Source of the DNA: Macrotrachela quadricornifera
Taxonomy: Eukaryota; Rotifera; Eurotatoria; Philodinida; Philodinidae
Direction: 5' to 3'
Length of the DNA stretch: 64,000 nt
Assembly (NCBI GenBank): GCA_022393335.1
Contig: JAJEKB010021389.1
Location: 73,443-137,442, forward strand
In this document: positions 33,344-55,531 of the stretch, piece by piece
How the letters are laid out: every line of letters starts with the position of its first letter
Position numbering within the stretch: position 1 is the first letter of the stretch
Notes under the pieces: model-generated
Told to the model about the DNA's origin: nothing
Databases searched by the model: none
What the model saw: the letters and a program-made list of their open reading frames with translations, nothing else
Made by a program: the position numbers and the translations under genes

Positions 33344-33652
33344 TATTTGTTTCTTGAGAGTGAGTAAGATAATTCTGAAAAAATAATCAATAAAAAAGAG
33401 CATTAGAAATTATGGGTGTCATATTACTACTTGCCAAAGTAATACTAAATATTTTTATGATTGAAAAAAATGATATTTAACGATACTCACAAATTAGTTT
33501 ATTCATCAATTATTTCTTTCTAAGTGATAAGTGATAACTGGAACTTCTCAGGTCAAAACATTTGACGGTAGGATCAATGGTCCTTATAACTTTTCAAATA
33601 TTATAAAGGGGCGGTCTCTATAATTTTTCGAGAACTGTCTAGAACTGATACG
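33344..33652. promoter_or_regulatory. Probable 5' UTR intron and promoter region of the PARG/PBZ gene
   Basis: On the minus strand a pyrimidine-rich TTTTTTCAG lies about 30 bp before the chosen ATG, consistent with a 3' splice site. A transposon-like element starts at 33653, close enough to influence expression. No TATA box can be assigned. Confidence 0.35.
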
Positions 33653-34534
33653 TACCCAGGTGAAAGAATATCCCATCGTAAACGGCCTTAAACTGTAAAA
33701 AACGACGAAAAACGGTCACCCTGAGGCCATCATTTACGGTGAATCGTAAAACGGCTTGAAAACGACGTAAAACTACAGTCGTTTCCGTCTCATCTGAAAC
33801 GGCGGCCGTAAGGATTCCAATTTTTCACCGTTATTAAGCCACATCCCGCCGATAGATTAGAATCTATTGCCTTTTGCCAAAAAAAATGTTTTTTTAGTCT
33901 ATATATATATACGAAAGGTACCTCATTTTAAATACAATGATTTTTTTTTATTTAGATTGGTCCAACACCAATACAAATGGTGAGTTATTTTAAATAAAAT
34001 GATTATTTTTTTATTTAGGCTGATCTAATACCAATATGGATGGTAAGTTACTGTAAATAAAATAATTATATTTTTACTTAGAATTGCAATGTTATCCCTA
34101 AAATTGACGATTATTCGCCGATGTTTGCCCGATTTTGATCGTACGGGTACCACAGTAGCGAATTATAAATACGATAGTATACTATGATCGTACATCGTCG
34201 TATACGATCATATACGAGCATCGTAATGCTCGCCCTGAATAGTTATGATAGAGTCGACGAAATGAAAGCTACTACTACCTGGTGTAAAACGTCAAAAAAA
34301 CGGCGCGTTTTAGGCATGAAACGGCATCGATACGGTTCATGGTTATTCGTCGGAAACGGCGCCGTTTCTATTCCGGCGAAACTACATATACAAATCTGAG
34401 TTAACGGATTACGGTGTTAAACGGCGAAAAACGGCATCCATTCATGCCCGTTTCCTGCACGAGTTTAGCCGTTTTTTAGTCGTTTCATGCCTTATACGGC
34501 GTCGGAAATGGCGCTCGGAATCATCGACCTGGGT
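33653..34534. mobile_element. TACCCAGGT-ended element carrying a mini-exon array
   Basis: Starts TACCCAGGT at 33653 and ends ACCTGGGTA at 34534. Both flanking parts are packed with CGTAAACGG-, AACGGC- and CGTATACGA-like words, and the GC content is above that of the neighbourhood. The middle is AT-rich and holds the array at 33951-34085. No transposase. It lies just upstream of the PARG/PBZ gene. Confidence 0.7.
33951..34085 (+). repeat. Mini-exon array 1
   Basis: Units of exactly 63 bp: TTTAG acceptors end at 33955, 34018 and 34081. The first two are followed by 24-nt segments (33956-33979 and 34019-34042) ending in ATG, then GTGAGT or GTAAGT donors, then an AT-rich spacer. Confidence 0.7.
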
Positions 34535-34739
34535 AAAGAAAACAGAGTGACGGCTATGTATTCAATTTTGAATGGGTGGAGGATCAACTGCATCCATAGT
34601 AATATACGTAATAATGTATATTAAAAGTGATAATAGATGACTCTTGTATAAGATGTAGAAGACTGTTGATATTCAAAACAGCCGAGAATATCATACTTTC
34701 TTTTTTGATAAAGTTCAGGACCAAAAAAGTAGAGATGTC

Positions 34740-35116
34740 ACAGTTACTGCTTTTGGTAAGTAAATTGTTTCAGAGCTATATGATACTTTTTTGTGGTAAG
34801 TGAACCAACAAATTAATGTATCGTGTAGATTTTGATGCCCTCTACAATATTTGTTTCAAGTAGGTGATAAGAAATGTCCTTAGATGAAATGTTATTAAGC
34901 TCACAAGGTTAATAACGTCACTTACCAAAAAAATAAGTAGTACTATCACCTTGTGAGCTTAATAACTGTAACATGAGCACACTTACTACCACTTACCTGA
35001 AATAATTATTATAGAGGCCATAAAGATCTACACGACACATTAATTTGTTGGTTTCCTTACCATAGAAAAATATCAGGTAAGTCTAAAACAATTTACTTAC
35101 CAAAAACAGTAAGTAC
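34740..35116. mobile_element. Palindromic element, about 375 bp
   Basis: Inverted repeat: 34740-34920 pairs with about 34935-35116 (TTACTG...TTTTGGTAAGTAAATTG at one end, complement at the other). GGTAAGTA and TTTCAG words are present in the arms. Non-coding. Confidence 0.75.
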
Positions 35117-35212
35117 GAGACTCACGATTTATCATGCATCTCTTGCCAGCGTAAAACAAAACGCTAAAAAATGTCCAAAATATTGCACAACGCACTTGCT
35201 AATAGTATTATA

Positions 35213-35782
35213 CTTAGGATTGACCAAAAGTTCGTAGAACGGTTAAATGATCATGTCGGATAAGGTAATCCTATTCAGAAATAAAAATACTAAATATACC
35301 ATGTTGTAGAACTTTTCGAGGCGCGTCGAATGGTATATAGGAAATGCTGTTTCCAAAAGACTTTGTACGGACTAGAGTTAACTTACTGATAAACGAAGAC
35401 ACACCCACACTCACAACTACTTATGCGCACACTGACAAGATGACCGAAGATATTGCGTAAATGAGATTATAACCCGTCAAAAACTCTACCAAATTATATG
35501 TAAGAAACAATATTTTATAAATGTTTTTAACCAATACCGAGACCCACAATATTTAATGACCTACCATACTTGAATAAGGGTGTGAATATGGGTGTGTAGT
35601 CGTCTATCAGTAAGTTAACTCTAGTTCGTACAAAGTCTTATAGAAACAGCATTTCCTATATACCATTCGACGCGCCTCGAAAAATTCTACAACATGGTAT
35701 ATTTAGTATTTTTATTTCTGAATAGGATTACCTTATCCGACATGATCATTTAACCGTTCTACGAGCTTTTGGTCAACCCTAA
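35213..35782. mobile_element. Inverted-repeat element, about 570 bp, CTTAGG ends
   Basis: Arms of about 190 bp (35213-35400 and 35585-35782) pair almost perfectly. The ends are CTTAGGATTGACCAAAAG and its near complement, and the unpaired centre is about 185 bp. No coding capacity. Confidence 0.85.
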
Positions 35783-35856
35783 GCATTATTCAGTTTGATT
35801 CAGACTAAAACTTAAAAATCGTCTAGAAGAACTCTGAAAACAATATTCAATGTCTA

Positions 35857-36290
35857 TCAGGCGTACACGGGGCACAGTTTTTTACACCCCCGCTCCGCCC
35901 CGACCCCTGAGTATCTAGCTTCATATCCCGCAGAGCCCCGAGAATTTTTTAAAAAGAAGCTCCGCCCCACCCCGTATTAAGTTAGCTCTGTGCCCCGTTA
36001 TGACATTATATGACTTTATACATTTTTATGATGTCAAAATTGATCTAGTCATGATAGTTCCTGAGATATTACCTTCCTTGAGCAAATACACCACTTGATT
36101 GGTGTTTACACAAGTTGAGAGGGACTTATTTGTTGAGATTTCGAAAAAAATCAACATACTCTGTTTACAACAGATTTTTTCATCGCTCACTCGCCCCACC
36201 CTGCCTCGTCATACCCTGTGAACTTTTGAAACGATAGTCTCGTCCCATGAAAAATCACGAAGATCCGCGGGGCGCACCGTACACCTCTGA
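35857..36290. mobile_element. GC-rich MITE-like element
   Basis: Ends TCAGGCGTACACGGGGC and the complement of CGCACCGTACACCTCTGA. Unusually for this window it contains C-rich blocks (GCTCCGCCCC, CGCCCCACCC). 434 bp, no frame. Confidence 0.65.
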
Positions 36291-36747
36291 TTTCGACCGA
36301 TTTCAACTAATTCCAAGCCTGAAATCAGAATTGGAATTGGTACGTCCATTTATAGGACATTGACTGTCCTGATTCCGAATATGAGTATGAGACATCCTCG
36401 AATGTCTTTATAGGCTAGTTTCTTATATAGGGTGAGCTAGCTTTTTAAATTGGAGTAAGGTAATAAATTCTAATATCATATTATTTGGAGAAAAACCTGA
36501 TTTTAGAATGAATTTTATCTATATGTATGTTGATAATCATTTTTTCAGCTGTGTCAATTACCAGTTATTGTCCGTTGATGACATACCCATGATTTCCTAG
36601 AATACTAAAAAACTTCAAAAAATTAGTTTTTTGAACCGTCAGTAGTGACAAACTTGAAAGTTGAATTCAAGTATTGAACTATTACTTCAAGTATTAAACT
36701 ATTCAACTTTTCAACCATTCAAGTATTTAAGTATTCAATGAACCTCA

Positions 36748-37243
36748 GCTGCCCCTGTTTGGTACTTTTACGCCCTCCACCAGCATTGCGTCCTTACCCT
36801 TCCCACTGAAAAAAAGTAAGATTATGTAAGATTTTATTAGATCTCAATCGGATTTTTCTGCACCAAAATCAAAATTATAATTGATTGAAATCTTTCCAAA
36901 TCAACAATAATTTGATTTTTAATCAAATTAAATCAAGTAGAATTTTGATTAAAATCACATATTTTTTGATTAAAATTAAAATTATACCAGATTTTGAGAA
37001 TTATTTTTGATTAAAAATCAAATTATTGTTGATTTGGAAAGATTTCAATCAATTATAATTTTGATTTTGGTGCAGAAAATTCCGATTGAAATCTGATAAA
37101 ATCTTACATAATCTTACCTTTTTTCAATGGGTTAGCTGCCCCTGTGTGGTGCTTTTACACCCTCCATCAGCATTGCGCCCTCACTCTCAGTTGCCCCAGT
37201 GTGATGCTGCTACGCCCTTCGCCAGCATTACGCCCTCACCTGC
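36748..37243. repeat. 54-bp tandem repeat split by a MITE
   Basis: Three units of 53-55 bp (36748-36800, 37135-37189, 37190-37243). Each starts GCTGCCCC or GTTGCCCC and contains a CACCAGCATTGCGCCCTCAC-like block. Units 1 and 2 are separated by the MITE at 36802-37131. Outside lie inverted TTCAAGTATT-rich blocks (36655-36735 and 37290-37345). The frame at 37086-37319 is a by-product of this repeat. Confidence 0.8.
36802..37131. mobile_element. Palindromic MITE with CCCACTGAAAAAA ends
   Basis: 330 bp. The ends CCCACTGAAAAAAAG and its near complement are followed by paired AAGATTATGTAAGATTTTA blocks, and the interior is rich in GATTAAAAT. It inserted between two units of a tandem repeat. Confidence 0.82.
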
Positions 37244-37319
37244 AGGTGGCTCTGTGAGGTTCTGCGCTCCCAATGCCTCCCCTCTCCCTCTTCGAATACT
37301 TGAAAAGTTGAATACTTGA

Positions 37320-39229
37320 ATTCAAGTTTCAAGTATTACATATATGCAATCAAAAGCACAGTGGGGTAGCCAGGGATGACGCCATTGGGCAACTGCCCAG
37401 GAGTCCAATAGCTATCACTCAAGGATATTTTGAGATGGTATTAGCCGCCCAATGATAGGAACCTTCGATCAACATGCAAGTGCAGCAACTTCAACTTTAA
37501 TAATAAAATTTTTATAGATTATCTCTCAGTGTCCGACTCGGATCACAGCAGTTCTAAAAATTCCGAAACTCACATAAGAAAAGAAGCAAGTTTGGAGGAG
37601 ATAATTATTTCTTTATTTCGAATATCGACAGAATATCGTTTGATTTACTCAAAAAAGATTCTCAATGATTGAAAAGAATTCGCTTTTATTGGCTAAAAAT
37701 TATCCTTTACCTCGGGTCGGATCAGGTCAAGTCAGAAAAAAGTGACCCATGTCAGATATTGTTATCTCTTGTTCTGAGCTGATCAAATGATTTAAAAAGA
37801 TCGTTCCGCAATCTTTTCTCTTAAACAATAACTATGATGATGGTATGTCAATGGTATCTTGGTCAAAGCACTAATTCTTATACTGAAATGCGGTTTTTGA
37901 AAGAACATAGACGACTGCTTAGCCGTCTCTCCAAGCACATACGACTATGTGCAATGGTAACGGCTACAACACCTTAAGCTAAACACTTTGGCAATGTAAG
38001 TGTTGATATAACTATTATATCACACACATTAAAACAAATTTAATAAGCTACACAGAAATTCCGGAGAAAAATTGGTCGAACGTACGAATTAATGTACTTC
38101 GAAAGTACAACTTAGGAGTTCCCAACAGTGGCAAATAAAATGATAATTCGACATTTGTAGATTTCATAAATAACTAAGCATAAGAGGCACACAAGAGGTT
38201 TGTTTCATGTTTGAACAGAATCGTTAGGAATGAATGCGGAGTAGCGTTTGAAATTCTTCGACAAAAACAGAGCAGACTAAAGCTTAATGTTACTTCCGTG
38301 GCATAAAAACGGAGGAGAAAATAATTAGGAGTTCGTCCTTGTTCTGTCTAAAGAACGGATGGTAAGTGGCCGTTCTTTATCAAAAGACCTATAAACTACT
38401 TGAGGAAAATGTCTTAGTATAACGTTTATTCAAGTACAGTGCCATTGGAAGTTTGAATAACTTTCGTTTCGCAAGTAAGATTTTTTTAAGAACTTATTAA
38501 TTTGGTTAATTATCTATTTATTTCGACTTTCAAAGTAGTATATGTTTCTCCTATTTTAAACCGTTGTTGAACAAGAAAAGGGTTACATTATACCCAAATC
38601 AACGTTTTATCTTTCAGTGAGAATGTGAAAGTGTAGCTAGTTTCAGTGGCTGAGGATCGAATCAGGTAGATCATTTTTTACTGTTAATATTCCAAAAAAA
38701 TCGAATTTCCATTCACTGAATTCTAGGTTGATCCAATGGAAGATTTAGTTCTATTCTACAAACACACTGTCTTCGATTGAATGTTCTCCTCAACACATGC
38801 TTACTTTATAAGTCTAATACAATGTACTTGTCATCAAGAAACTCGAGATTTCACGAACATGAAAAATCTATTCACTTTGTACAGCATTTTTCGGAAATTT
38901 TGGCAAAAGAAAAATGGACTCAAGCGGGCAACTTTTTACATCTTTTCCGAATAAATTTTAACACTTGTTAGACTTCGCGGCCGAACACTCACCTGCGTTA
39001 CTCGATAAAAAAATATGCTCATCTTGATAATTTTCAAACAAAAGATGATAAGATAGTTTAAAGTTGGAGAATACCTTTGTGAAGCAGTGTACACAGATAC
39101 CGAACAGGCTCATCTCTCGGTTGAGGCTTGTTGACTTTCTCTTTCACAAACGTCGACTTGGAAAAGATAAGAACTTTTAAAAAAATTGTAGTCGTCTTGA
39201 GTTTACAGTTGCTCATGGATGCCTAAGCT
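37320..39229. other. Intergenic, no gene recognised
   Basis: 37520-37600 matches the reverse complement of about 27390-27450, a dispersed repeat. The remainder shows no domain-bearing frame. Confidence 0.4.
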
Positions 39230-39424
39230 TCAAAACAATTTGACTGACCAGATCGAACGATACGGTCCAAGTACATTCCGTTTACGGTTACTTGACACCT
39301 AAACGAACTGCATACGATCGTATGATCTGACGCAGAAATACTGCTCTATCGTAATGAAGTTACGACCCGTACATAGTGGTATACTGTAAAAATATGGATA
39401 GCCGTATTGATTGACCTGGGTGAA
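39230..39424. mobile_element. Solo end of a TACCCAGGT-family element
   Basis: Ends TGATTGACCTGGGT (39407-39421) and is preceded by words typical of the family (CGATACGGTCC, CCGTTTACGG, CATACGATCGTATG). No matching left end was found nearby. Confidence 0.5.
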
Positions 39425-41518
39425 GAACTATCTAATACACAAAAATTTCTGGATACACCATCACAAAAGCACCATATTTTTTTCAAGGAGCAAAATTTTA
39501 AAAAAAGTATCTTAGGTAATACAACTCGATGTGCTCTATCACTGGTAGAAATATCAAAATGTTTAAAAATCGACAAAACTCCCGAAAGTTTGTGTGCAGA
39601 AGGACCAAAAATCAGTATTTATAGTAAAAAAACGACAAGTTAAAAGTCTAACAAATTGAAATGCATAAGTTATTTTATTAAAGAAAATCGATTAAAAATA
39701 TATATTGAAAATTATGAAAAATTTCGTTTATATTTTGATTTTTGGTCTAGAAAAAAATAATCAAATCGAGCTGAAAATTTTATGAAATACTAAACTCACT
39801 ACCTTTTACAACATAAAAAAAAAATTACCGAATTCTGAGATATGACTCCATCGTCAATATCCTATAGTGACTGATTTTCTCAGACACTCACTCTTAAAGA
39901 GTTATACAAATCATCTTTAGATAACTCTTGAAAAGGTATAAGAGCCATTAATCCTACAGTCAAACATTTTGGTCAGAGCATTTCCAGCTGTCACTTACCA
40001 CTTACTAGTAATAGTAGTGAGAATATAATATCCCTACTATGAATAACGATTATTTGAAGTAAGAATATTCTTGCCTATACTGAAAAATTTCATCATTTTT
40101 TTGTGCATACGTGCATGATCTTTTTGAACTTCCTGAGCAAGATGATCATGTACTATGGACACATCTTGAGTCAGCCATTTGAAAAAAATTAGAACAGGGC
40201 AATGAAGGTAAAAAACTATCATCATATATATATTTCATGGAAAAATCACTTGAATTATTGATATTTTTTGATAATATATTTAAAAAAAACAATGTAATTT
40301 CTCAGCCACACCGGCAGCTTTGATGCTACTAGTATATTATTGTTGCTGCCATGGGTGCCAGGAATACACCTGTAGCAGTCTCCAGGTAATATTACTAGCA
40401 TATCATATATTCTAACTTTAAAACATAAGGTGCCACTCATGATGAACTTACTTCTAATAATTAACTGATACAGTGATCGGTTCGTATATTAAATCGTATT
40501 CAGCAACTATTAATATGATCGAAAAAAAGTAAAGTTGGAAATTTACAATGATTGTTCTCGTATCACCATCGTAAAAAGCTTTTTCACTGATAAGACAAAT
40601 CTTGACGACATGACGGAGGACAGAATAACACTTGGAAAGATAAAGCAAAATAAATTTTCTTAAGTGGCAATAATATAAAAGAAATAGACTTACAAAAGAA
40701 AAAAAACTCAGTAGTCAAAACAGAAAAAAAGAAAAAATATATTGAAGAAACCAAACGAAAAACAATCTTCCTATTTTTGATTGATCTCCTATTTTCTTAG
40801 GTTCTCTAGAAAAGATTCGATCTTTTAATAGAAACGATATGATATTCTCTATAAAGTCGTACTTAAATCTTAATTTCAGTTTTTTAATCAAGAAAAACAA
40901 ATCGAATATCTTCTTCTTCTCGTATTATTTTCGTGATAAATCTTAACAAGAATGAGAACTCAATTGGTCCGTGATATTTTGAAATACATTTTTTTCTTAT
41001 GACTTATAAAAAAGATATTTTTTGAGCAAATGATGTATTCATTAATGAAGAATGAGTGAGGAATGCGAAATAAGTAAATTCAATCGAAATTTCCATTATT
41101 TTTATCATATTATGAAACTTTTACTGAGATCGATATCATATGACTAAGATTTATGTTTAATTTTTCGTTTTTGTTAAGTTTATTTTTAAGCTTAGAAATT
41201 ATTTATTAAAGAAGCTTCCGATATTAATCAAAATTCATATTGTAGAGTATGATTTATTGCATAATTCCATTCTCAACGCAAATTTTCCATCATGTGTTTT
41301 ACTATAGAAAAAATTCATTTAGGATTTCTTATCCATTCTTCAGTCTATTCGTTACTTTTTCGTGATTACCGTGACAGTTACTAAAGATAGTTTATCTATA
41401 TCAGTGAATGATTCTTAACTATGATAAACTTAATAATGATACATTTGCTAAGAATATTTATTATTTTTATCTTTTTTAATTAATAAAAGATGGAAAGTAA
41501 ATAAGGTATATGATTGAA
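39425..41518. other. Intergenic, no gene recognised
   Basis: AT-rich; short frames on both strands have no recognisable domain. Confidence 0.4.
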
Positions 41519-41872
41519 TTAACCGCGCATTGGTACCGGTGGTATAACATATCCACGATCATCGACAGTTATACGCACACGATCATGTTTGAGATCGGCA
41601 GTCACCGGTTGACCTGGAGAAATAGTCTCTCCTTGAAGACCTATATACAAAGAAATTTTGATTGATAAAGAATACCAGATGCTTTGTTTTATTAACTTAC
41701 CCATTTGAACAATTTTTCCTAAAGCTTGACCTGCATTCATACCAATTAGTTCAGGAAATGTTGTTTTTAATGTTTGTGGCATTGGTGGAGGTACATCTGG
41801 TCCCATACCAAATTGACAATTTCCACTCCATTCATTGTGCATTTGTTGTCCAAAATAGTTTTGATCATCCAT
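41519..41872 (-). CDS. Potato inhibitor I family serine protease inhibitor
   Basis: Two exons, 41872-41701 and 41640-41519, separated by a 60-bp GTAAGT...TATAG intron, give 97 residues. The core FPELIGMNAGQAL ... VTADLKHDRVRITVD ... VPMRG follows the family pattern, which starts with (W/F)PELVG and ends VPxxG. Comparison with eglin-type members places the binding loop at PVTADLKHDRVRI, so P1-P1' is Ala72-Asp73. A small P1 residue suggests elastase- or subtilisin-like targets; this is inference. About 38 residues rich in Pro, Gly, Met and Gln precede the domain, with no signal peptide, so it is likely cytosolic. Disulphides are not expected. The gene stands alone among repeats. Confidence 0.86.
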   Translation of the reverse strand: MDDQNYFGQQMHNEWSGNCQFGMGPDVPPPMPQTLKTTFPELIGMNAGQALGKIVQMGKLIKQSIWYSLSIKISLYIGLQGETISPGQPVTADLKHDRVRITVDDRGYVIPPVPMRG

Positions 41873-42844
41873 GTTAACAATCGATTGATTTAAATCTACG
41901 AAAATCTACCTTTTTATATAGTTATATGTGAATAAGATAAAATATCGTCATTTTTCTCTCCCTCTTCATCTCACAATATAATTGTGTCTTATATTATTCA
42001 TGATTTAGTGACGCTTCATCGATTCATTCATCGTCTAATTTTGATGTACTGTGCTCTTGTTGGTTGTTATTGACGTCAAAATACAGATGCAATAATAACA
42101 AACACTTATTATCGCATATGTATCTTTTTTGATTATTTTATAACCAATCGTTGACTATATGAATACACTAATGAAAGAGGTAGAAAAAAAATGATCAAGA
42201 ATATCATGATAAATAAATATTGAAAAGTATTTAGTGAAGAATATTCTTAAAATGTTTATATGAATTTATTTCCTAAAAGAATTTTTAATAGATTTATCTT
42301 TCGACAAATACAATTATTGATCTTTTCAGTATAAGTTATCAGTTGTTTTTATTTGTATAATTATATAGATTGTTCTCGTTTATGTATAGTTGATTAATTA
42401 TTCATGTTTGTTTGTTTGTTTTCGAAGCTTTAGTTTTTATTCTTATTTTTAAATTAAAAGAATTGTAGACAAAAAGAAATAAAATAACTTAGATGTGATG
42501 TATAAAGATTCTATGATAATCACACGAGACAACAATTAAAAGAGACGATTGCAATGACAGTAAACAATATAGAAATCTTCTGTTCTTATAGTGACAAATT
42601 TTTTTTTTTGTCTTGATTATTTTAATAAGAAGATTTATATTATGAAATAAAGGTTTCAAATATGGCAAAAGGAAGTGTTTTTTCTAAAATGTAGTATAAA
42701 CCCATCGATGGGTCAAATTGACTCGAAAGGATTATAAGAATAATAAATTCAAATACTGTGTGTAAAAATGAAAACAAAAACGAATTTTATTTTTATATCA
42801 TAATAAAATATGTTTTATTTATTTTCTTTCTCGTATAGAATAAT
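41873..42844. other. Intergenic upstream of the inhibitor gene
   Basis: AT-rich; presumably contains the inhibitor promoter. No motif was assigned. Confidence 0.35.
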
Positions 42845-42975
42845 CCAAAATGATTAAACTGCTTGCTTAATTGTTCATTAATTAATCAAAATAAATCATT
42901 TATTGATAGATCCTAAACATCATGTCATTGAGAAAGAGCTGAATGAGTTCTAAAATGAATATTACTTGTTTGAAT
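42845..42975. repeat. Dispersed short repeat, copy 2 of 3
   Basis: Homologous to 10095-10225: shares TTAATCAAAATAAATCATTT, AAACATCATGTC, GAGAAAGAGCTGAA and ATTACTTGTTT in order. Confidence 0.6.
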
Positions 42976-43086
42976 CTTAAATAAAACAAATTCAATTCAT
43001 ATTAAAATATCAAATACTCTGCATACCAAATAATAGTGAAATCAACCCTAGAATATTCTATAAAATGACATAGGAGATTTTTTTGT

Positions 43087-43368
43087 CTATATATTCTGAT
43101 AATCTAAGTTGTACGCAGAGACGTCCATCGCGGTTGAGAATCTGGCTGCTGTCGCGATGGTATTTTTAAAAATCTTTTGATTATTCAAGGGCGTGACCGG
43201 TTTAAACAAGCGTTGATCATGATAATCGATCAGATTCGTCTCGATCCTTATCGTACAGCACTCATCAACATAGAGATTATGTGTAAATTCACGAATTTTG
43301 GAAATTTCTTTCATAGAAAAGCTAACACCATCGGCGCGGTGAAGATCTCTGGTTGTACGATATGATTC
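43087..43368. other. Possible exon or pseudogene fragment
   Basis: The stretch is less AT-rich than its flanks and open in both directions (plus strand RDRFKQALIMIIDQIRLDPY and onward to a stop; minus strand a 75-residue frame). No domain was recognised. It may be a relic of a gene. Confidence 0.2.
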
Positions 43369-43743
43369 TATAATATTTCATAAATATTTAAACGGTATTA
43401 TAATATTGAAATTATAGCAAAAATCGTGAGTCATTCATTAAAGAAAAAATCTTTTTTTGAAGCAAGTTTAGAAAGTTTTAATTATATGAAATGTTTAAAA
43501 TAATGATTTTAGTTGTTTTGCATAGACATAAATTGATTGAATGCATTTATCAAACGTTTTTTTTTTAAATACTCTTCTCTTTTCAACAACTACATAAATT
43601 TGATCACAGCTTTATATAACGATTCAACATCATTTTGATTGTCAAAATTGCATTCAATTACATCAAATAATCAAAAATTACATGAATTCAGATCTGAAAA
43701 ATTAGATGAATCTAATGTTGTTGATATACTTTCCAGGCTAGCT
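43369..43743. other. Intergenic, nothing recognised
   Basis: AT-rich sequence without supported features. Confidence 0.35.
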
Positions 43744-44465
43744 CTACTTTGCGGATACTTTTTTTCACTAATTAAGAAAAAATGTCCGCAAAGTAAAAAC
43801 GGGGGGGGGGGGGGGGGGGAGAGAATCTAAAATGTCTGCATAAGAGAAAGTGTCTGCAACGTGGAATCGAGGGAGAGGGGTAAACAAACAATGATGATGG
43901 CATCAACAGAGTAAGTGAACATAGATATCACATGATATCTGTAGATTTTGATAAACCGGAGTTCGGTATTTATTGTAGAAACAATAAGAGAACAGGAACA
44001 ACAAGAAGATGGAAGGGTCAACGATGGTTCGAGTAGAACAAGAACAAATTCAACAATGCATAACACGTCGTAGAAAACCAAAAACAGTGATCAATAAAAA
44101 TCTTCTGATTCAAGCAAAATACGAATATCTAGATTGTGTTTTGAACCTAACTGGCTATCAGAAGCAATTAAGCATTCTCTCTTATCGATATATCCAGGTG
44201 TTCGATGCTAATGAAAAAGACGATCTTGATTATTAACCAAAGTAAAACTGGTCACTCAATTGTCTGTTATGAATAAATTTTTCTTTACTTTTGGTATAAT
44301 AAACTTTGTTTTACTTTATGATGTGATCACATTGTTTCTCGTTCTCTCTCCTCCGATTCCACGTTGCGGACACTTTCTCTTATGCGGACATTTTAGATTT
44401 TCTCCCCCTGTTTCTACTTTGCGGATACTTTTTTCACCAATTAAGAAAAAATGTCCGCAAAGTAG
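43744..44465. mobile_element. Element with hairpin ends (CTACTTTGCGGA...TCCGCAAAGTAG)
   Basis: Each end is a block of about 52 bp that is itself a near-palindrome (TACTTTGCGGA ... TCCGCAAAGTA), followed inward by inverted repeats (AATCTAAAATGTCTGCATAA with its complement near 44370). The left side has a run of 19 G at 43801-43819. The interior holds a short plus-strand frame (44009-44236, ATG start) of 75 codons, rich in charged residues, with no recognised domain. 722 bp, so probably non-autonomous. Confidence 0.78.
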
Positions 44466-47139
44466 AAGACGCGACTTTCCAAATGAAAATAATTGACTAC
44501 ATCTATATAGATATATTTTTTTCCATTATTCTGATAAAATTTAATTGTTTGAATATTTAAGAAACGATGGTAATTTTTAATTTCATCAAGAGATAGTTAC
44601 AAACTATTATTTATTCAGATTTAATAAGTAATCTATAACCCATTAATTCGATTCGGATTTTCAACTTTTCAATTATTAAACTTTTAAAGAACTGGAGCGC
44701 ATAAGAGCACAAAATCGGCTCATTGATATTTTCCCTTCTAAACCCAATTAAATTTTATGTCAATAAAAAGAAAATATTAAGACGAGCATTTTTATGTTAA
44801 ACTTATGGTGTTTCGGTTGATTTTTGGAAGTTTACAACTTTTAACAAAATTGCTCATTTTTTATTATTTATTAAATAAACGATGTCTGAATAATGAGTTC
44901 AATTTTGCAATAAATACATAAGATAAAATGGAACGTTTGATTTAGTAGAATTTGATACTAAATTGTACCTATGCACTATTGATATAATGTCTATATTTGT
45001 GATCTAGAATGATTTTGTAACGAATAATTTGTCATAAAGATTGAAGGTATTAAAATTCTGGTCCAGCTCATTGAATAGATCTTTGAAAGAGCTACAAAAC
45101 TTTGTTTCCGAAAGTTTTTGAAAATATGTCTCCATAGAAATTTTTGAGTGAAAATGTCTTCGAACCACAATTTTTACACTTTTTATATTGGTTGTAAGGG
45201 TATTTAAGCAAAAGTTAGATTTTGTTGTTTTGTCTATCTGAATTTTGTTTTACTTTATTTATCCTTTAAAGAAATTCATTTTATCATTTTATTGTTAATT
45301 TTATAAGACGTAATCTATTCTTTTGAATCTTATTGCAAAATCTTTTTTAATCAATTGACATTTATTTCAAGAAATTGAGTAGACTCCAATTTACAGATAT
45401 AATATCTACTCATAGTTAGAAAATTATTTTAGTAAAAGTATGTCTTTATAAGAGAGATATTTTTTTCTCGGATGGATGTTTTCTATCTTAAAAAAGATAA
45501 AATAAAAATAGAATATGAAATGATCAAAAGCATTCATTATGGTTTGTTTAATTGAGTGACAGGAATTAAACTAACTATGTCTCTATATTCACCCAAAGAA
45601 TATTAAATAGTGATGTTGAGGAGTAGTTAAATGGTAAAGACATCAATGCCTATTAAAAATGATACTACGAAGAATATTATCATATTCTATTCAAAGACTG
45701 ACATTTACCTATAGAAGTTCTAACGGACGACTGAGTTAATGGTGATGTTTCTGTCAGAGTGCATTATCATTTTCTTCTTATTTTCTCTTTTATATAAATT
45801 GTGTTGTGCGCAAATAGATACATTCTAGAGATAGGAAATAGATTACGAAGAATCATTAACAACAATCTTGATAAATCTATTGCTCAGGTTTATCTTTACA
45901 TTAACATCTGCCATTCGTCAGGAATAAGAATACAGAATAAAAAATAACTCTATATTTACGTATAACGTATAGTTAAGAGAATTAATAAGATTCGTAATAT
46001 ATAATATTGACTCGTTGTTGATTCGATAGTGTGATAATCCCATATCGATTTTCCAGTATTTATTTTTATTTTACACTCTTTTTGATTAACATAAATACGA
46101 CCAAAAAGAAAATAGTTCTAGTCAGATTTTTCTTAAAAATATAGTTTTACAAAATTAATCCCATATAACGTTAGAAAATTTCCTGAAAAAATATTTCGAA
46201 AATAGTAAAGGCATTCTCATCCTCTGATTCTGACAAATCGAATGATTTGCCTTTTTCACGCATTTTTTTCAAAAAATACACCTTATTTTTCTGATTACTT
46301 CTCTTTACTTTTATCATTTGATCTCATATTTATATCACAGTTATATATTTGTTTATTTAATCTATTAAGTATTTCTTGAATTAATAGCTTTGAAACAGTA
46401 CTTTCTCGGTCATCGAATGTTAAATATATTTTTGAGCAATGACTTTTCGAAAAATTTATTTAGCAAAAAGGTATGCGAAATTGATCTGTTTTTGGAAGAA
46501 CCGCCAAAAGTGTAATGAAAAACTAAATAGATAGGTTTTTCGTAGAAACAAGTGAATGAAAATTTAGCTGCCTTCGATATCAGTCTCTGTGAAAATTTCT
46601 ACGACACGCCTATACTTGGTTGAACAACAACACATGGAACGAGTATAGAATAACGTTCAGTTTTTTGTAGTTAATGTTGATGCTCTAAATAATTATTTTC
46701 TTTACGAGATAATCAAGTCTGAAAACATTAATTCTGTTCCATTACTTTTCTCATCCAAAATTTTTTTTTTTACTCGTCTAGTGTGTATTTTGTGTGCATG
46801 AGATATCGTCTTTTCTTTTCCTATTCAACTAAATCATTCTCTACAGAATCTTATAAAATTTTGTAACATCGAAAGAGTAAGTGGGACAATTTGGAAACTA
46901 AACTCTACGTGTCAAACATTAATCGCTTTATCAAAGTGTGTTTCTCACAAAAAGTAGTACATTACATACTTAGGTCACTCCAAGAGTTTTTTTCGCCCAG
47001 CCCATCTAAAGCCCACAGTTCAAGTTAAAGTATTTTGTTATAATGCTTAGGCATATTCAGGATTATGTACAAAGTTTCAAACTTCTAACATTTGTCCCTC
47101 ATCCTCCAGCCCATCGTTGCTTTTATATTTGATACATGC
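44466..47139. other. Long AT-rich gap without a recognisable gene
   Basis: 2.7 kb. I read both strands and found no frame with a known motif, no tRNA-like T-loop and no clear repeat. Confidence 0.4.
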
Positions 47140-47650
47140 AACTTGCTATCCGATTAAGAAGATCTAGCGTGAAAAACTCTACAATTTACCTAAGACAGCT
47201 ACTTTTAAAGTTACACTTTTTATTTTGAAAATCGAGAAAATTCTAAACGACTAAATTTCAACTTGCGAAAAGTGGTTTTTTTCTTATCGCCTGATAAGTT
47301 TTATTTGAAAAAAAAATAAAGTAGACCATAAGATGCAGCATGAAAAACTCTACAATTTACAAAGAAGTTTATATTATATATGCAACTTTTGTTATTAAGA
47401 AAAAATAAAATTGTAAGAGAGAAATCTTCTAGCACACAAAAGTTCTCCACGAACGAAAACGTTCTTTGTTCTTATTTCATCTCTTTATCATCCAAGACAC
47501 TTTCTTTACAAAAAATAAAACATGATAAAAGATGCAGCGTGAAAAGATCTACAATCACAAAAGCAATTTCATTTTAATTTTTTTTTATCTTGGAAGTAAA
47601 ATCAAAATTCTCTAAACTACGTATCGCAGCATCGATAGTTGGTCACTCAC
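47140..47650. repeat. Tandem repeat, three degenerate units of about 170-190 bp
   Basis: The phrase GATGCAGCRTGAAAARMTCTACAAT recurs near 47160, 47332 and 47530, each time preceded by an AT-rich block. An inverted partial copy lies near 47705-47740. Confidence 0.55.
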
Positions 47651-47824
47651 GTCAGAATACTGTTTATTTTGAAAGAAAAAATACATAATCACTACAAGTT
47701 TTATATTGTAGATTGCAGAGCTTTTCATGCTGCATATTTTGGTATATTTTGTTTTTATTTTCACAAGTAACGCAGTATAATTGCCACTGACCCTCTACTG
47801 AATAGATGTGATCACATCGGTCAC

Positions 47825-49306
47825 TACCCAGGTCATCCAAAACGGCCTCGTTTACGGCCTGAAAACGAGCCGTAAATGTGATAAAAACGGAGTATTTACG
47901 GCAGTATACTGTGTATATACAGCTCGTTTTCGAACCGTATCGAACCGTATGAGTGGGCGCAGTATTACGGACCGTATTGTATCTGTTTGGTAAACGGTCC
48001 GTATTTGACCGTTTTTCTTAACTTTACGGATACAATACGGTTATGTGTATTACTACGTATTAACATCGTAAATGGTCGTTAACATACCGTATCATATCCG
48101 TTTACGATATGTTTCGTAGGATGAGCGTTACGAAAATAGGTCGCTGTCAACGTACAATGAACAGTAGATATTGTTTTAAACGAAATAATTCTTTCTTTTT
48201 TTATTTTAGATTTATCTAAACGGTACAATAAATAGTATATATTGTTTGAAATGAAAAAAATGAATTGTTTCATTTCAAACAATATATACTGTTTGTTGTA
48301 CCGTTTAGATGAATCTAAAACAAAACAAAAAGAGTTATTTCGTTTAAAACAATATTTGTTGTTCATTGTGCCGTCGATAGAGACCTAAATAAAGAAAAAA
48401 ATATTTTATTTAAAAAGGATACTTACTTTTGGTTGTGCCATTGAGATAAATCTAAAGAAAGAAAAAAATATATTGTATTTAAAAAAATACTTACTGTTCA
48501 TTGTGCCGTTGATAATGACCTAAATAAAAAAATGTTTCATTTAAAAGAAAATACTGTTGCGTGTGCCTTTGATAGTGACCTAAAGAAAGAAAAAAAATAT
48601 TGTATTTAAAAAAAATACTTACTGTTGGTTGTGCCGTTGATATGGACCTAAAAAATAATATTTCATTTAAAAAGATATTTACTGATTTACTGTTTGTTTT
48701 GCCGTTGATGGTGACGGAAATAAAGAATTATTGTATGTAAAAAAGAACTTACTGTCTGTTCTGCCATTGAGATAAATCTAAATATAGAAAAAGAACTATT
48801 TAATATTAAAATTCTATGTATTGTTCATTCTATTGTTGAGATGAATATAAAATAAAAAATATTATTTAATATTCAAATCATATTTACTGCTGAACACGAC
48901 AAAAGTACGATCGTGGATTATCAACCTTAGTTTATTTCTCATTACTTCATTTTTATTCCATGAGACAAAGACGTATTGTATCCGTATGTGTATTGTTAAC
49001 TGATATCGATATAAGATAAATGTTGGTTGCCTGTAAAGACATCGTTTTTGATCGGTTTACCACCGTTTACGGTCCGTTCTTATTGACCTGGGTAACTTTA
49101 AAAAATACGGTACAAAACGATACGTAAACGATGTCCGTTACGGAATCGTATACGATGTTCCGTATACGGGACCGAAAGCACTCCGTGATTCATCCGTAAG
49201 GATGTCGTAAACGGATATCAGTATACGAAAAATAGCGGATCTCCGTAAAGCCATCGCTTTTTACTCGTTTATTGGCGTATACGGACCGTATCATTCAACC
49301 TGGGTA
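47825..49306. mobile_element. TACCCAGGT-ended element with a head-to-head mini-exon array
   Basis: Starts TACCCAGGTCAT at 47825 and ends AACCTGGGTA at 49306. A further internal end (TTGACCTGGGTA) lies at 49083-49094, so the right side may be two joined copies. Both sides are dense in CGTAAACGG, CGTATACGG and ACGGACCGTA words. The centre (48160-48900) is the array. Confidence 0.72.
48160..48900 (-). repeat. Mini-exon array 2, mostly minus-oriented
   Basis: About ten units of 60-70 bp. Read on the minus strand: CTTTAG, then about 26 nt resembling GTCATTATCAACGGCACA + AYNAACAG, then GTAAGTATTTTT, then poly-A/T. The first unit or two (48160-48240) point the other way, so the array folds on itself around 48245-48270. 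Confidence 0.72.
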
Positions 49307-49981
49307 CGCTTAAGATACGATAACGACTTATTTTAATTCATGAATCGAATTATTTACCTAGTTCTCAAAAACTCTATTATCTTTTCTCATTTTATTTACT
49401 CTAAGTCTCTCAACTTAACGTCTAGTTGTTCGTTGGCCTCCCTAATGGTCGGCCACTCACGACTACCCGTTTCTGTGGAAGCCTTCATTGTGTCCTTCAA
49501 TTTTGGTTTACTTTCAAATCGAATAAATGGGTTTCATTTCATTCTCTTTCCGATAGCAATGATCTTCTACCAATACAATTCTAAAAAAGAAATTTAAAGG
49601 ATGAACTATCGTTTCATGAGCCGCTGAGAATAGAGCCTATTCGTCTAACGCAGTTCTTCACCTATTTGTGATGATTTTTTATATAGCTGATGTCTATAAA
49701 GATGCAACAGTAAGATCACAACCAGTTATTTATATTTTGCCTGCATGTTTCTGCTAAAAGTCTGACGAAAAATATAAGGTGGACTCGTCGAGAACGCAAA
49801 GACGTTTAATCAAAAATGATCCCACATTCGTACGTCTCCTTCCAATTATTTCATTTACAGCTTCTATAAGACAACCATTCGTAAACCTTAAACTTCAAAC
49901 TTCTAAACGGGTCTGAAGATACACATCACAACCTCGGCCATCCTACGATTTTACCTTTTATTAAGATTTGAAACAAAGAAA
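49307..49981. other. Intergenic, nothing recognised
   Basis: The frame at 49340-49597 is hydrophobic and unrecognised. Confidence 0.35.
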
Positions 49982-50149
49982 TACCTAGGTCAAACAAGCA
50001 TGATCGTAAACGATCATATGTTAAGCAATACAAAGATATACATGAAGTCGTGTTACGTTCGTGTATCTCCACGATCGTAAACAGAAAAATACGATCATTT
50101 ACGAAAAAAAAACACTTGTTCATGAAGTCTGTAACGATTGACCTGGATA
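49982..50149. mobile_element. Minimal 168-bp copy of the TACCCAGGT family
   Basis: Ends TACCTAGGTCAA and TTGACCTGGATA. The interior is only family words (GATCGTAAACGATCAT, CACGATCGTAAAC, TACGATCATTTACG) and there is no array. It looks like a MITE-sized deletion product. Confidence 0.72.
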
Positions 50150-50334
50150 CACAATCATTTCTTTTCGAAAGAGAAGGACAAAAAACAGCCAAGCACAATG
50201 CATTAGGACGAAATAATCTCAAATTCGTATATCTCACCATCGATAAACTTTGGTTAAGTTTTCAAAAAAAGCAATGATTTTTTTCGGGGGGAAGGGGGCG
50301 AGACCTAAAAGTAGACCAGGAACAATCATTCACA

Positions 50335-50395
50335 TAAACACCAACATCAGATTTGGATTCTTCGACCCCGATTACCTTTCGGTCAACCATTATAT
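50335..50395. repeat. Dispersed repeat (inverted relative to 58195)
   Basis: The reverse complement shares GGTTGACCGAAAGGTAATCG, AAGAATCC and AATCTGATGTT with 58190-58245. Confidence 0.65.
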
Positions 50396-50859
50396 AAATA
50401 TATAAATAATAATAGAAAAATGAATGCCAATGATGTGCGAACGGACGAACGCAACTAACTCACTCGGTATATACCCTCGTTTCAGTAGAGGGAACAATTC
50501 GTTTCTTTAAACATACTTATACAGGATGTTATTTTTCTTAAGATAGGCAAAATTCTAGTAGACTTCTTCCTTTTTTGTAATACTAAGCTAGAGATGGTAT
50601 TTATTTATCGTCCATTCAATGTACTGAGAATTAAATTTTTTTATTTAGTAAGGATAAGGAAAATTATTTTCTTTTCTTTTTCTATTCGAATAGAAAAATA
50701 GGCTTTCCGTATATATATACATAAGAAATAGTACTCTCAAATTATTGAGTCAACATAGATAAGAAAAACTCATTCAGTTTAACACAGTTAAATTCTATAT
50801 AGTATTCACTCACTTTACATAGATTAAATTCAAATTTGTTTTATCTCAGCCGAGTTAAT
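50396..50859. other. Intergenic, nothing recognised
   Basis: AT-rich; no frame or repeat supported. Confidence 0.35.
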
Positions 50860-51085
50860 TAATTATTTTTTTATTTTTTATTTTAGATTATTGACACTAG
50901 TAAGACGTAAGTATTTTAATTTACACTAATGGCACCAACAGGTGAGCATTATTTTAAAATAAATTATTTTTTATTCTCTATTTTCTGTTTTAAATTATTG
51001 ACACTAGCAACGCGTAAGTATTTTAATAAACTAAATTAATTTTTATTTTTTTTTATTTTAGACTAATGGCACAAACAGGTAAGTA
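50860..51085 (+). repeat. Mini-exon array 3, short and decayed
   Basis: TTTTAG followed by 20-25 nt (ATTATTGACACTAGTAAGAC, then ACTAATGGCACAAACAG) and GTAAGTATTTT donors, about three to four units. No flanking TACCCAGGT end was found close by. Confidence 0.6.
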
Positions 51086-51879
51086 TTTTGAGAGAGATCC
51101 ATATACTCCGAAAGAATTTATAAAATACTCATAATTAGTATATGAATGTCTCATGAAAACTTTTATGAAAATGATACGTACGGTAAAAAAGAGTTTATGA
51201 GACTTTGCACTTTCTTAAATCTTGTAAGGATTTATTATTCTACTTTCTTTTACAGCGCAGGCAAACAGATGTTCCATCAAATAGAGACCAACAGATCAGG
51301 CTAAAATTTTAAAATTCAGCCAATGTCTGCCACACGATCTCTGGTAGAGAGACGATTGAAACTTCTACCGGTATACTTCAACGCTTTTTTTTTATTATGC
51401 TAGTGGATGTGACACTCGGAAGTGTTTACATGATAATAGAAAGAGAAATCGTGATATTTAAGATGAAAGCCACATTATTAATGCAATGCGTCACTTAATT
51501 GTCGGAAATATAAGTAATTATGACAAATATGAGGACATGTTTGCAAGGATATAGAGGAAGTTAATGAAAAGTGATTAAAGTAAAAAAGAAACAGGAAAAC
51601 GAAGAGAATAGAAAAAAAATAAGAAGAAGAAGTAAAGAGAAAAAAATGAGGAAGAGTAAAAAAGAAGAGCAATACAGCAAAAAAGAGGCTGAAGTATTAC
51701 ACGTGCTACTAATCGTATCAATTCTTTTCAACAAAAAACAACTATTTTAACAGAAATGACTCGTGATGATCTATCAACTGTCGTACACGGCGCGATCGAA
51801 AAAATGATCGAAATGATCATTTTTCCATGTGTAATACACGTCTCAGACGAAAGCATCCTTATAGAAAAGTGAAGATCTA
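51086..51879. other. Intergenic, nothing recognised
   Basis: Includes a purine-rich stretch (51550-51670). No supported gene. Confidence 0.35.
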
Positions 51880-52499
51880 ACGAGGGAACCGATCCAACTG
51901 ATTAATCGTTTTAGAGTTTGGAGTCTGTGTATGTAGTGGACCCCAGTGAGGTATAAAAAACACCAAAAGGATAAGTACCCATAGGTCTTCCTTCCAAAGT
52001 AATAGTCATTATACTGGAATTTTAGCCTATGGCACAGTATACGTCAACAAATCGAAAGTCGGTATTTCGACCTGAAATTTTGCCCACAGATACGCCTACT
52101 TGTACATAGAATGCCCTGAAAATTTCAGCTAAAAAAATATTTCCTTCACGTAATATCGAATTTTCAAGGAACACGAGATTTTCGGATCTTTCATGGAACA
52201 ACATCGATTTTTGGAAATTCCATATCTCGTGAAGGAAATATTTCTTTTAGCTGAAATTTTCGGGACATTCTACGTACAAGTAGGCGTATCTGTGGGCAAA
52301 ATTTCAGGCCTAAATACCGACTTTCGATTTGTTGATGTGTACTGTGCCATAGGCTAAAATTCCAGTATAACCACTATTACTTTGGAAGGAAGACCTATGG
52401 GTACTTATCCTTTTGGAGTTTTTCATACCTCACTGGGGTCTACTACATACACAGACTCCGAACTCTAAAACGATTAATCAGTTGGATCGGTTCCCTCGT
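51880..52499. mobile_element. Foldback element, ACGAGGGAAC family, 620 bp
   Basis: Starts ACGAGGGAACCGATCCAACT and ends with the exact complement. The arms meet near 52190. The body phrase (AGGCTAAAATTCCAGTATAA, GGAAGGAAGACC, TATCCTTTTGG) aligns with the body of 20026-20644, so they are diverged relatives. Confidence 0.9.
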
Positions 52500-52590
52500 A
52501 AGATCAGTCGAATCATTGTTTTTAATTTTCTTTGAAGATACTTTTTTACATAAAACTCTAAAGGCTATTCTGCCGTAAAACTATAAAGGC

Positions 52591-53350
52591 TATCCAGGAC
52601 GAAAAGGCATAATCGTAAATGGTCGTATACGACGAGATGCGTCTAGAAGCGCCCGTCGTATATGATGAACATATACGCTCAATGTAAACGATTGTCATAC
52701 ACAACGGTAGTATATGATCGTATACAGCCGTAGATTAGTCGTAAACTGAGATTCATTTCTCGGCCATAGTATTAACTATTTAATTCAACACAGAATACAA
52801 TAGAACGTTGAACTCAATATGAGGCATTTTAAATCATATTATTTTAAACTATATATCGACCAGAATTAGTATTTATAGATTTAAATAAATTTTACTTTTT
52901 ATTTTCATATTATTGATGATAATAAAAGAAAACAGTTATGTTTTTTTATTTCAATATTTTCTTTTTGTTTATCTTTAGACTATTAATCGGGATAAAACAA
53001 GAGGTAAATTTTATTTTAAATTAAATTATTTTTTATTTTAGAATGAGCTCAACGACATAACAACAGAAAGGATTATTTAAAAATAAATTATTTTTTTATT
53101 TATTTTAGAGATTTTTCAACTGCACAGTGGACTGTAAGTATTGTTTTAAATTAAATTACTTTTTTTAATTTAGATTGAATCTAACGACACAATGAGCACT
53201 AAGAATTTATTTCAAATTAAATTATTATTTTTTATTTTTTAGTTTAGGTTTATATCACTAGGACAATAAAATATAAGCATTTACTTTAATATAAATTATT
53301 TTTTTTTATTTTAGATTTATCTGAACATCTCAATGAAGAGTAAATATTCC
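52591..53350 (+). mobile_element. Partial TACCCAGGT-family element with mini-exon array 4
   Basis: The left end TATCCAGGACGAAAAGGCAT is followed by CGTAAATGGTCGTATACGA words, then five to six units (52975-53350) of TTTTAG + about 26 nt + GTAA-like donor, several decayed. A possible right end (GCTTGTCCTAGGCA) lies only at 55504-55517, beyond a gene fragment, so this copy is rearranged or truncated. Confidence 0.6.
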
Positions 53351-53389
53351 TGGTATTGACGATAAGAGTAGAGGATAAAAAGGAAATAA

Positions 53390-53713
53390 TTATGCGAAGT
53401 GCGGAAAAGTAAATACAAAAAAGCAGTGGCGCAGAACTTCAGACGGTATACTTCGTCTAACTTTTAACCATTTTAGTTTACCCAAGGATTTTTGAATCTT
53501 TTTAATGTATTTCTTGACAGTGGGTCTCAAAGAAAGTTTATCAGCCCAAATAAATCCTAAATAGTGAAACTCCTTAACAAAACCAATTTCTTCTCCATTC
53601 ATTGTAATATTCGCTAGCAGTCGTTTCACTTGTGTATGAAATAATGTATCTTCTTTCTCTAGATATTGAATCGTTGGTGTTAGATGCGCCATAATAGAAA
53701 AAATTGATTGCAC
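53390..53713 (-). pseudogene. LINE-type reverse transcriptase fragment
   Basis: A frame of about 107 residues without a recognisable start. NGEEIGFVKEFHYLGFIW followed by DKLSLRPTVKKYIKKIQKSL and LRHCFFVFTFPHFA fits the segment after the RT palm in non-LTR retrotransposons, where F-x-YLG is the hallmark. The catalytic YADD part is absent. A 5'-truncated or broken copy. Confidence 0.62.
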
Positions 53714-54539
53714 CTATTTTTTTTTCAGACGTATATAACATTCATAGATGATATCTATCTTGTGACATTTTGTATATTATAATTCTATGCCAATAGAAAT
53801 GAATTCATCAGCAGTAGGGTTGTCAAATCAGTTCAATATAATTCAAACATACTTAACTCGTTATTTTATGGTACCTATTTATATTTTTGGTAACTTTGGC
53901 AATTTCGTAAATATTATTATGTTTTCTCAACGTAATTTCAAGTTGAATAACATCTGTGCCTAGTATTTTATCGGTTTATCATTATCCAATCTATTGTATA
54001 TCGACATAGGCGGTCTAACACGAAGTCTACCATTTCTAACTAATTTTAATTTAGAAACTACACACTAGTCGACGATCTTGCCTCACTTCTTTCCAGATTC
54101 TTGTTTTTCTTAATCATCAGACAAGATTCTTTATATTCATGATGTTCAGGCAAGATTCTTTTGAAAGGAAAGAAAAAAGATTCATACCAGAAATTCAAGA
54201 CAAGAAGGTTCTTGTCTGATTATTCAGAAGTAAAAGAATCAGACAAGAGTGACAAGATATTCAAGATATTTCTAAAGTTCAGACAAGAATCTTTTTCTTT
54301 TCCTCTCAAAAGAATCTTGCCTGAACATCATGAATAAAAAGAATCTTGTCTGATAATCAAGAAAAACAAGAATCTGGAAAGAATTACAAGAAATTTAAAA
54401 ATTTCTTGAAGTTCAGGCAAGCTTCTTTTTATTTCTTTTAAAAGATTCTTACTTGATCTTCAAGATCAATAGCAGGTGATCTCATGGTTCAAACACATAT
54501 AAATATAGACGTATGACCGTTACTTATTCATTTATAATT

Positions 54540-55190
54540 ATGACGATCGTATAACATCGTGTTAGTGTCGTTTAAACAGTAAGTTATTTTTAACAAAACA
54601 ATAATTTTTTTTCTTTCATTTAGATGCATCTCGACGACACAATCAACAGTAAGTATTATTTTAAATTAAATAGTTTTTTTTTTCTTTTATGTAAGTTGAC
54701 CTCAAAGGTACAAAATAATGGTAAGTATTCTTTTATTCTATTAAATATATTTTTTATCTTTTGTTTAGGTCTATTTCAACCCAATAATAATTGGCAAGTA
54801 TTATTTTAAATCAAACAGTTTTATCTTTCATTTAGTTATGTTTAACCCAATGTCACAAGCAATAAAAAATATTGTGATTCAATAAAATATTTTTTTTATG
54901 TTTCAAATTCGACTCAACGACATAACTAATGGTAAATATTTTTATTAAATAAAATAGTTTTCTTTTATTATTTTAGACAGAACTCAATGCTACAACTTGT
55001 GGTAAGTATTATTATTGAAGTAATTTTTTTTCTTCGTCTAGGTTCAACTCAACGGTACAATTAAAAGATAAGTATTATTATTATATAAAAAAGATCTTTT
55101 TTTTTTATTTAGATGCGACTCAACGGCTTATTCTATGGTAAGTATGTTTTCAATCCACTCAATATTTTTTTATCGTTTTAGATAGTTTTT
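54540..55190 (+). repeat. Mini-exon array 5, the longest plus-oriented array
   Basis: About nine units of 60-75 bp. Each has a pyrimidine-rich TTTAG acceptor, 25-26 nt resembling ATGCATCTCGACGACACA + ATCAACAG, then GTAAGTATT (or TAAGTATT after G), then AT-rich filler. Segments are mostly 25 or 26 nt, not multiples of three. Confidence 0.75.
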
Positions 55191-55531
55191 TTATTATAAA
55201 ATAAAAAATTATTTTGAATAATAAAAATATTATTTAAAATATTTATAATAAATTTTATTTTTTTAAAGTGGTCTTTTATGACGGCGGTTATTTTTGGAAA
55301 ACTTGTATTTTAGAAAATGAGAGGGAAAGGTGACAGAAACTCATCTCTCTCCTCCTTAGTTAGATGTTTATGTCTATACAATGACAAACGACGTCATATA
55401 CGACGATATAACGGTTGTTTACATTGGTCATGAATACATCGTATTCTATCGTATACGACACGACGAGATGCGATCGTATAGTGTTGTTTACGACTATCGT
55501 AATGCTTGTCCTAGGCATCTAGAGGCATCGA

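Follow-up and report, generated by a model that had tools for sequence, protein, structure and literature searches.

Tandem arrays of exon-like units with splice-site-like borders inside multi-copy, non-autonomous transposons of the rotifer Macrotrachela quadricornifera

A 64-kb stretch of the genome of Macrotrachela quadricornifera (contig JAJEKB010021389.1, positions 73,443 to 137,442; hereafter the window, from a genome of 450 Mb in 5695 contigs) contains five arrays, A to E, of a short tandem unit that resembles a tiny exon with a splice acceptor before it and a splice donor after it. Arrays A, B and E are the inner part of multi-copy, non-autonomous transposons with terminal inverted repeats (TIRs), a setting that the original prediction of these arrays had missed. 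The carriers are of at least two terminally unrelated kinds, one ended by CCCAGGT and the other by CACTA. The arrays are probably internal minisatellites of such DNA transposons, with a unit that is likely to derive from an intron-exon-intron segment.

The unit consists, in order, of a T-tract with TTTAG, 25 nucleotides (nt) of the type ATTNATCTCAACGGCACAATNAACA, the donor GTAAGTATT and an AT spacer; the consensus of the nineteen 25-nt units of the window reads T-tract, TTTAG, ATTNATCTCAACGGCACAATNAACA, GTAAGTATTNTTTTAAA. The arrays of the window are:

33925 to 34081, forward strand: array A, two 24-nt exon-like segments (33956-33979 and 34019-34042) with 39-nt spacers and a terminal acceptor ending at 34081.
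48260 to 48880, reverse strand: main part of array B, eight 25-nt segments with first bases at 48777, 48715, 48647, 48579, 48519, 48451, 48384 and 48314, decaying towards 48880.
48137 to 48255, forward strand: inverted part of array B, two units in palindromic arrangement with the main part (inverted repeats I12 and I25).
50870 to 51089, forward strand: array C, alternating exon-like segments of 20 nt and 17 nt (50887, 50925, 50994 and 51062).
52959 to 53355, forward strand: array D, six segments of 25-26 nt, with borders decayed in part.
54560 to 55181, forward strand: array E, a donor-only start (donor at 54579), eight segments of 25-26 nt (54624, 54696, 54769, 54836, 54907, 54977, 55042 and 55113, with no donor at 54836) and an acceptor-only end at 55181.

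A scan of the window for the two borders (a T-rich tract, TT[TC]AG, 18-34 nt and a GT donor) yielded 17 sites, 14 inside the arrays and three outside; 100 first-order Markov simulations gave a mean of 2.0 and a maximum of 6. A sequence-only profile (R1), built from 22 window units, had 28 matches in the window at an E-value below 0.001, every one within arrays A to E, and its best match outside the arrays had an E-value of 0.0064; the 22 seed units match by construction, and the informative part is the drop in score outside the arrays. A 35-base pattern of the unit, with three mismatches at most, matched 67 times in the genome and its backward control not once. In 41 partly overlapping loci the profile had 324 matches.

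The five arrays therefore lie where the original prediction had put them, with all 28 profile matches inside, and the border scan and the profile bear out the architecture that it described (pyrimidine tract and TTTAG, short segment, donor, AT spacer). Its period of 60-75 bp is in line with the sum of about 25 nt and a spacer of 35-49 nt (22 measured in arrays A, B, D and E). That every unit has both borders was too strong a statement: among the 28 window units AG is present in 24, GT in 20 and both in 17. The proposed segment length of 24-26 nt holds for 47 of the 48 units counted as distinct (under 85% alike, drawn from the window and 11 loci; 25 nt in 36, 24 nt in six, 26 nt in five and 17 nt in one) and fails for array C. 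AG precedes 40 of these 48 units, and AG and GT are both present in 31; the profile was seeded with units picked largely for having AG. Array B is present as proposed, but it reads almost wholly on the reverse strand, with only 48137-48255 in the forward direction.

Both borders are kept in two of the four segments of array C. Ten segments, 17, 20, 16, 20, 17, 20, 17, 20, 20 and 17 nt long, make up a C-type relative at the locus L091, and four of them have both AG and GT. At 4780-5001 of L091 (reverse strand), a C-type array begins shortly after an open reading frame (ORF) with a weak match to PHM7_ext (18.6 bits, under the cut-off of 22.1), as if it adjoined the end of a gene.

The splice-site likeness of the unit can be compared with three introns, chosen by eye, of a calpain-like gene in the window (12.4-13.5 kb). 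They are 46, 47 and 53 nt long, with GTAAGT, GTAAAT or GTATAT at one border and TAG or AAG at the other; the donor and acceptor of the unit resemble these borders, and the array spacers (35-49 nt) are near or slightly under the intron lengths. The gene has 87 protein relatives, of which eight carry a species name: five from bdelloid rotifers (Rotaria, Didymodactylos; 58-62% identity) and three from nematodes (35-55%). An AT-rich minisatellite in which TTTAG and GTAAGTATT merely happen to stand 25 nt apart, and which was never an exon, would suit an AT-rich genome, and the best-kept border columns are indeed A or T (TTTA, +3A, +4A), not the G in either AG or GT. Acceptor and donor nevertheless lie on one strand and both match the splice sites of the three host introns, and such a chance resemblance is very improbable.

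The transposons around arrays A, B and E, to which no strand is assigned, were delimited as follows:

33653 to 34535: element A, a non-autonomous TIR transposon of about 0.88 kb, running from TA and CCCAGGT to ACCTGGG and TA.
47825 to 49306: element B, running from TA and CCCAGGTCATCC to ATTCAACCTGGG and TA, 1478 bp excluding the TA repeats.
54063 to 56233: element E, running from CACTAGTCGACG to CGTCGACTAGTG, 2171 bp, with CACTA-like ends.
55533 to 55911: large palindrome in element E, 379 bp, with arms of 185 nt that are 91% complementary and 9 nt apart.

Genome-wide matches to arrays and elements come from searches in which part of the candidates were scored, so that all such counts are lower bounds. 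The ends of element A are exact at 33653-33661 and 34527-34535, and a query with 33655-34545 gave at least 96 matches (40 of 114 candidates scored). Six copies besides that of the window span query positions 1-3 to 880-884 at 77-81% identity. Array length seems to be variable in the relatives of element A, because the array part was matched repeatedly in several of them. Element B has sharp ends, shared among 13 aligned loci, at 47825 and 49306; 11 of the 13 are complete copies with CCCAGGT/ACCTGGG ends, and a 2-bp direct repeat, mostly TA, flanks eight of the 11. The array B query had at least 78 matches (40 of 79 candidates scored), with at least 11 array copies, the window's included, that are 97-100% identical over at least 316 of 327 bases.

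By their ends the carriers fall into two kinds, the CCCAGGT-ended elements A and B and the CACTAGTCG-ended element E. Thirteen of 24 loci hold complete copies of element E as judged by both ends, with one or two variable places allowed. CACTA/EnSpm transposons have CACTA termini and a target site duplication (TSD) of 2-3 bp: element E agrees in its termini, but a 2-bp direct repeat was found at just five of the 13 complete copies, a weaker result than for element B (the chance expectation from base composition is about 8%). Loci of B and E that are not complete are cut, rearranged or without one end in the stretch compared. The near-perfect palindrome of element E has a reverse-strand match in 17 loci, counting that of the window, out of 30 compared. 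At C4133:577676-580491, C4727:665713-668006 and C4293:77448-79852, the match to array E is in two parts separated by about 1.6-2.1 kb, which would fit an insertion of other DNA into the array.

Arrays C and D are likewise repeated in the genome, array C (query 50560-51320) with at least 57 matches, which on contig C3768 spread across about 2 kb, and array D with at least 61. Element ends were looked for around these two arrays and not found; both arrays may nonetheless lie inside such transposons.

In a BLAST comparison of elements B and E, the array gave strong matches (E-values down to 4e-39), and element B outside its array (48137-48911) had no match to element E at an E-value of 1 or less. 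The weak matches outside the array on the E side fell in an AT-rich stretch just beyond it (E-value 3e-4 or worse), in 30 bases at 54429 (0.06) and in the palindrome (0.55). Because only the array matches strongly between B and E, it is a module common to two terminally unrelated kinds of element. Elements A and B have the array in common and, weakly, their ends (best E-value 5e-4); elements A and E have the array in common and, weakly, a stretch past it (best E-value 0.002). Of 412 candidates for the left end of element E, 40 were scored, and 24 of these were not beside any E-array match listed; that list rests on 40 of 74 candidates scored, and some of the 24 may carry the array. The array may have moved between families through capture or through recombination of one array with another. 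It is decidedly unlikely that it is a transferable 'splicing cassette', a serial acceptor-25 nt-donor module acquired by each of several unrelated transposon families and retained for the shredding or silencing, via the spliceosome, of transcripts of its own element or of host genes, as a means of tolerance in genes unlike that of introners.

The arrays show no special coding capacity. When the exons were joined, the minimum number of stops was zero in array B, one in E and three in D, and 66%, 11% and 97% of exon-order shuffles, respectively, did as well; one frame is open across all eight exons of array B, as in most exon orders, and none is open in E or D. A coding micro-exon gene is ruled out, since the joined exons lack a special reading frame. 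Of the stop-to-stop ORFs with 100 or more amino acids, none is in element A, one (101 amino acids) is in element B, and none is wholly inside element E. A 117-amino-acid ORF runs across the left edge of element B, and ORFs of 102 and 205 amino acids cross the right edge of element E, the longer with a weak 7tm_1 match. On the basis of ORFs of this length, elements A, B and E contain no transposase.

The array might instead have come from a micro-exon-rich gene of an autonomous relative and have been retained by non-autonomous derivatives. The genome does possess CACTA-type transposases (19 matches to PF02992, Transposase_21), and about 2.8 kb separate one of these matches (C4598:168189-168533) from a D-type array on the opposite strand (C4598:164848-165403), which is a lead only. 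It is, however, the only one of the 19 within 10 kb of an array match among those listed, and none of the 19 shares a contig with any of the 40 scored copies of the left end of element E. A second array on C4598 (about 104.3-104.8 kb) has none of the listed PF02992 matches nearby. As the joined exons also lack a special open frame, such a relic appears quite unlikely.

Another reading gives the array a function in splicing. Serial acceptors and donors in a transcribed element would be spliced into tiny exons and introns of 35-49 nt, acting as a sponge, as poison mini-exons or through partial removal of the element from mRNA, and would be kept for less damage or altered expression. Both borders are near consensus and at an almost fixed distance, and 17 of the 28 units in the window and 31 of the 48 distinct ones retain the two together. 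This favours a splicing function, as does the presence of the array in terminally unrelated elements. The substitutions among copies of array E do not. With the window copy as the reference, 23 of 30 loci were compared; in the near group (12 loci), 7.1% of AG, 5.5% of GT, 4.1% of spacer, 7.9% of exon and 5.3% of positions outside the array had changed. The corresponding values in the far group (11 loci), possibly inflated by misaligned units, are 20%, 17%, 17%, 24% and 11%. By this comparison AG and GT themselves show no constraint in recent evolution.

Consensus sequences of E subfamilies, drawn from 13 of the 30 loci (E1, nine copies; E2, three copies; and the more distant L077), also tell against maintenance of the donor. 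Between E1 and E2, changes number three of 40 plus four indel positions in the acceptor (five bases), seven of 48 in the donor (six bases), 25 of 201 in the exon and 31 of 253 in the spacer, so that the donor is kept no better than spacer or exon, and the acceptor slightly better by substitutions. Between E1 and L077 they number five of 40, 11 of 48, 40 of 201 and, with many indels, 27 of 253. Borders are lost at several units of both consensuses; by eye, four of eight units in E1 and six of eight in E2 have both intact. The ends of the elements are not splice sites, and the whole element could therefore not be removed by them as an intron. Judged from these comparisons, the splice sites of the array decay to much the same degree as the sequence around them, so that a passenger minisatellite is likelier than a functioning device for splicing; the proposed splicing function appears unlikely.

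Several observations weigh against a passenger minisatellite, and the first three of them favour a function in splicing. Copies of array E differ less at donor positions +3 to +9 than in any other class of array position (near group, 1.7%; far group, 13% vs 17% for the spacer). Across the 48 distinct units, 42 retain the G of AG and 40 the G of GT, or 82 of 96 together, compared with 175 of 287 in six core exon columns of the G/C type (Fisher p=5e-6, a nominal value uncorrected for relatedness of units, in a comparison that omitted another five exon columns in which most units have G or C, on the whole less kept). Parsimony on 73 units, with a tree made without the border columns, gives eight changes at G-1, 11 at G+1 and 13 at G+5, compared with a mean of 14 (range 6-24) for nine G/C columns of the exon and 9.9 for its A/T columns; the TTTA ahead of the G has 1-2 changes per column. 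In all but one of the 48 distinct units the middle segment keeps to 24-26 nt, while the spacers vary. No autonomous partner was found, and no ancestral exon was identified. At the older level, between units, a modest constraint on the border G's is thus seen, which may partly reflect the selection of units. Better conservation of the borders than elsewhere in the unit, the lack of which the original prediction named as part of its refutation, is therefore absent at the recent level for AG and GT, which change at least as much as the spacer, present at donor positions +3 to +9, and modest at the deeper level between units.

A minisatellite grown from an exon border remains the best fit among the four possibilities that the original prediction offered, the others being an element that hides by being spliced, a splicing sponge and a source of circular or small RNAs. 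Such a minisatellite would probably have started with the capture of a short host-like intron-exon-intron segment, which was then duplicated in tandem. The arrays would have grown, shrunk and inverted, have passed between element families by recombination of array with array, and have multiplied through transposition that used trans-supplied enzymes. Their splice signals would be inherited, often still usable if the element is transcribed, yet not maintained in the copies, and the arrays would be without function.

An exon-like segment with both splice signals would, on this account, act as a mobile minisatellite, multiplied and rearranged in two terminally unrelated kinds of transposon. If transcribed, the arrays would present at least a few hundred potential mini-exons of a length outside the reading frame, and a natural test of the spliceosome on serial tiny exons and of transposon life within genes. 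Even as passengers, they caution against taking repeated pairs of splice sites for genes.

The window contains further large inverted repeats at 51874-52505, 57816-58781, 35207-35789, 36802-37131 and 34744-35112, with arms of 126-290 nt that are 82-96% complementary; these are probably fold-back elements. Removal of inverted-repeat transposons from mRNA by folding back was also considered, and a literature search on it gave nothing relevant. A transposase of the DDE_Tnp_1_7 family, of the piggyBac type, is encoded in two open frames at 558-2240 (reverse strand). A single open frame of 1890 amino acids with a microbial-type PARG domain (27737-33409, reverse strand) is possibly of foreign origin, and a protein with ADP-ribosyltransferase and TPR domains is encoded in one open frame at 23836-25929.

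Among known systems, spliced-leader RNA genes have a short exon followed by a GTAAG donor, as the present unit does, and no acceptor ahead of the exon. A spliced-leader RNA gene is ruled out on the acceptor alone, given the AG ahead of 40 of the 48 distinct units. In an introner, the entire element is an intron. The splice signals of the present elements are internal and serial, and an introner is ruled out by boundaries that are CCCAGG/CCTGGG or CACTA/TAGTG and not splice sites; introners are otherwise described as DNA-transposon-like and tied to splice signals, with families reported that have TIRs and TSDs (PMC9860276). The micro-exon genes of flatworms are described as protein-coding, with exon lengths divisible by three (PMC7653826). 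They share with the arrays the very short exons in runs, but the present segments of 24-26, 20 and 17 nt have no special frame. The poor fit to schistosome micro-exon genes noted in the original prediction was right, and a gene of the flatworm type is ruled out: the length is divisible by three (24 nt) in six of the 48 distinct units and not in the other 42 (25, 26 and 17 nt).

The main text of a survey of bdelloid transposable elements (PMC7943196) makes no mention of 'non-autonomous', 'tandem repeat', 'CACTA', 'EnSpm' or 'splic-', and arrays of the present kind were not found in the titles and abstract openings of the open-licence papers that the searches listed, which does not imply that they are unpublished. 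A further parallel is Tetris of Drosophila virilis, described as a non-autonomous inverted-repeat DNA transposon with internal tandem repeats and with ends in common with another element (PMC4079207). Internal tandem repeats in such non-autonomous TIR elements are thus already known. In contrast to Tetris, whose repeats are about 220 bp long and lie within the TIRs according to its description, the unit reported here is 60-75 bp long and occupies the inner part of the element, has splice-site-like borders, and is common to elements with unrelated ends. To our knowledge, what is new is a repeat unit in the form of an exon with both splice sites, and the sharing of that unit by transposons whose ends are unrelated.

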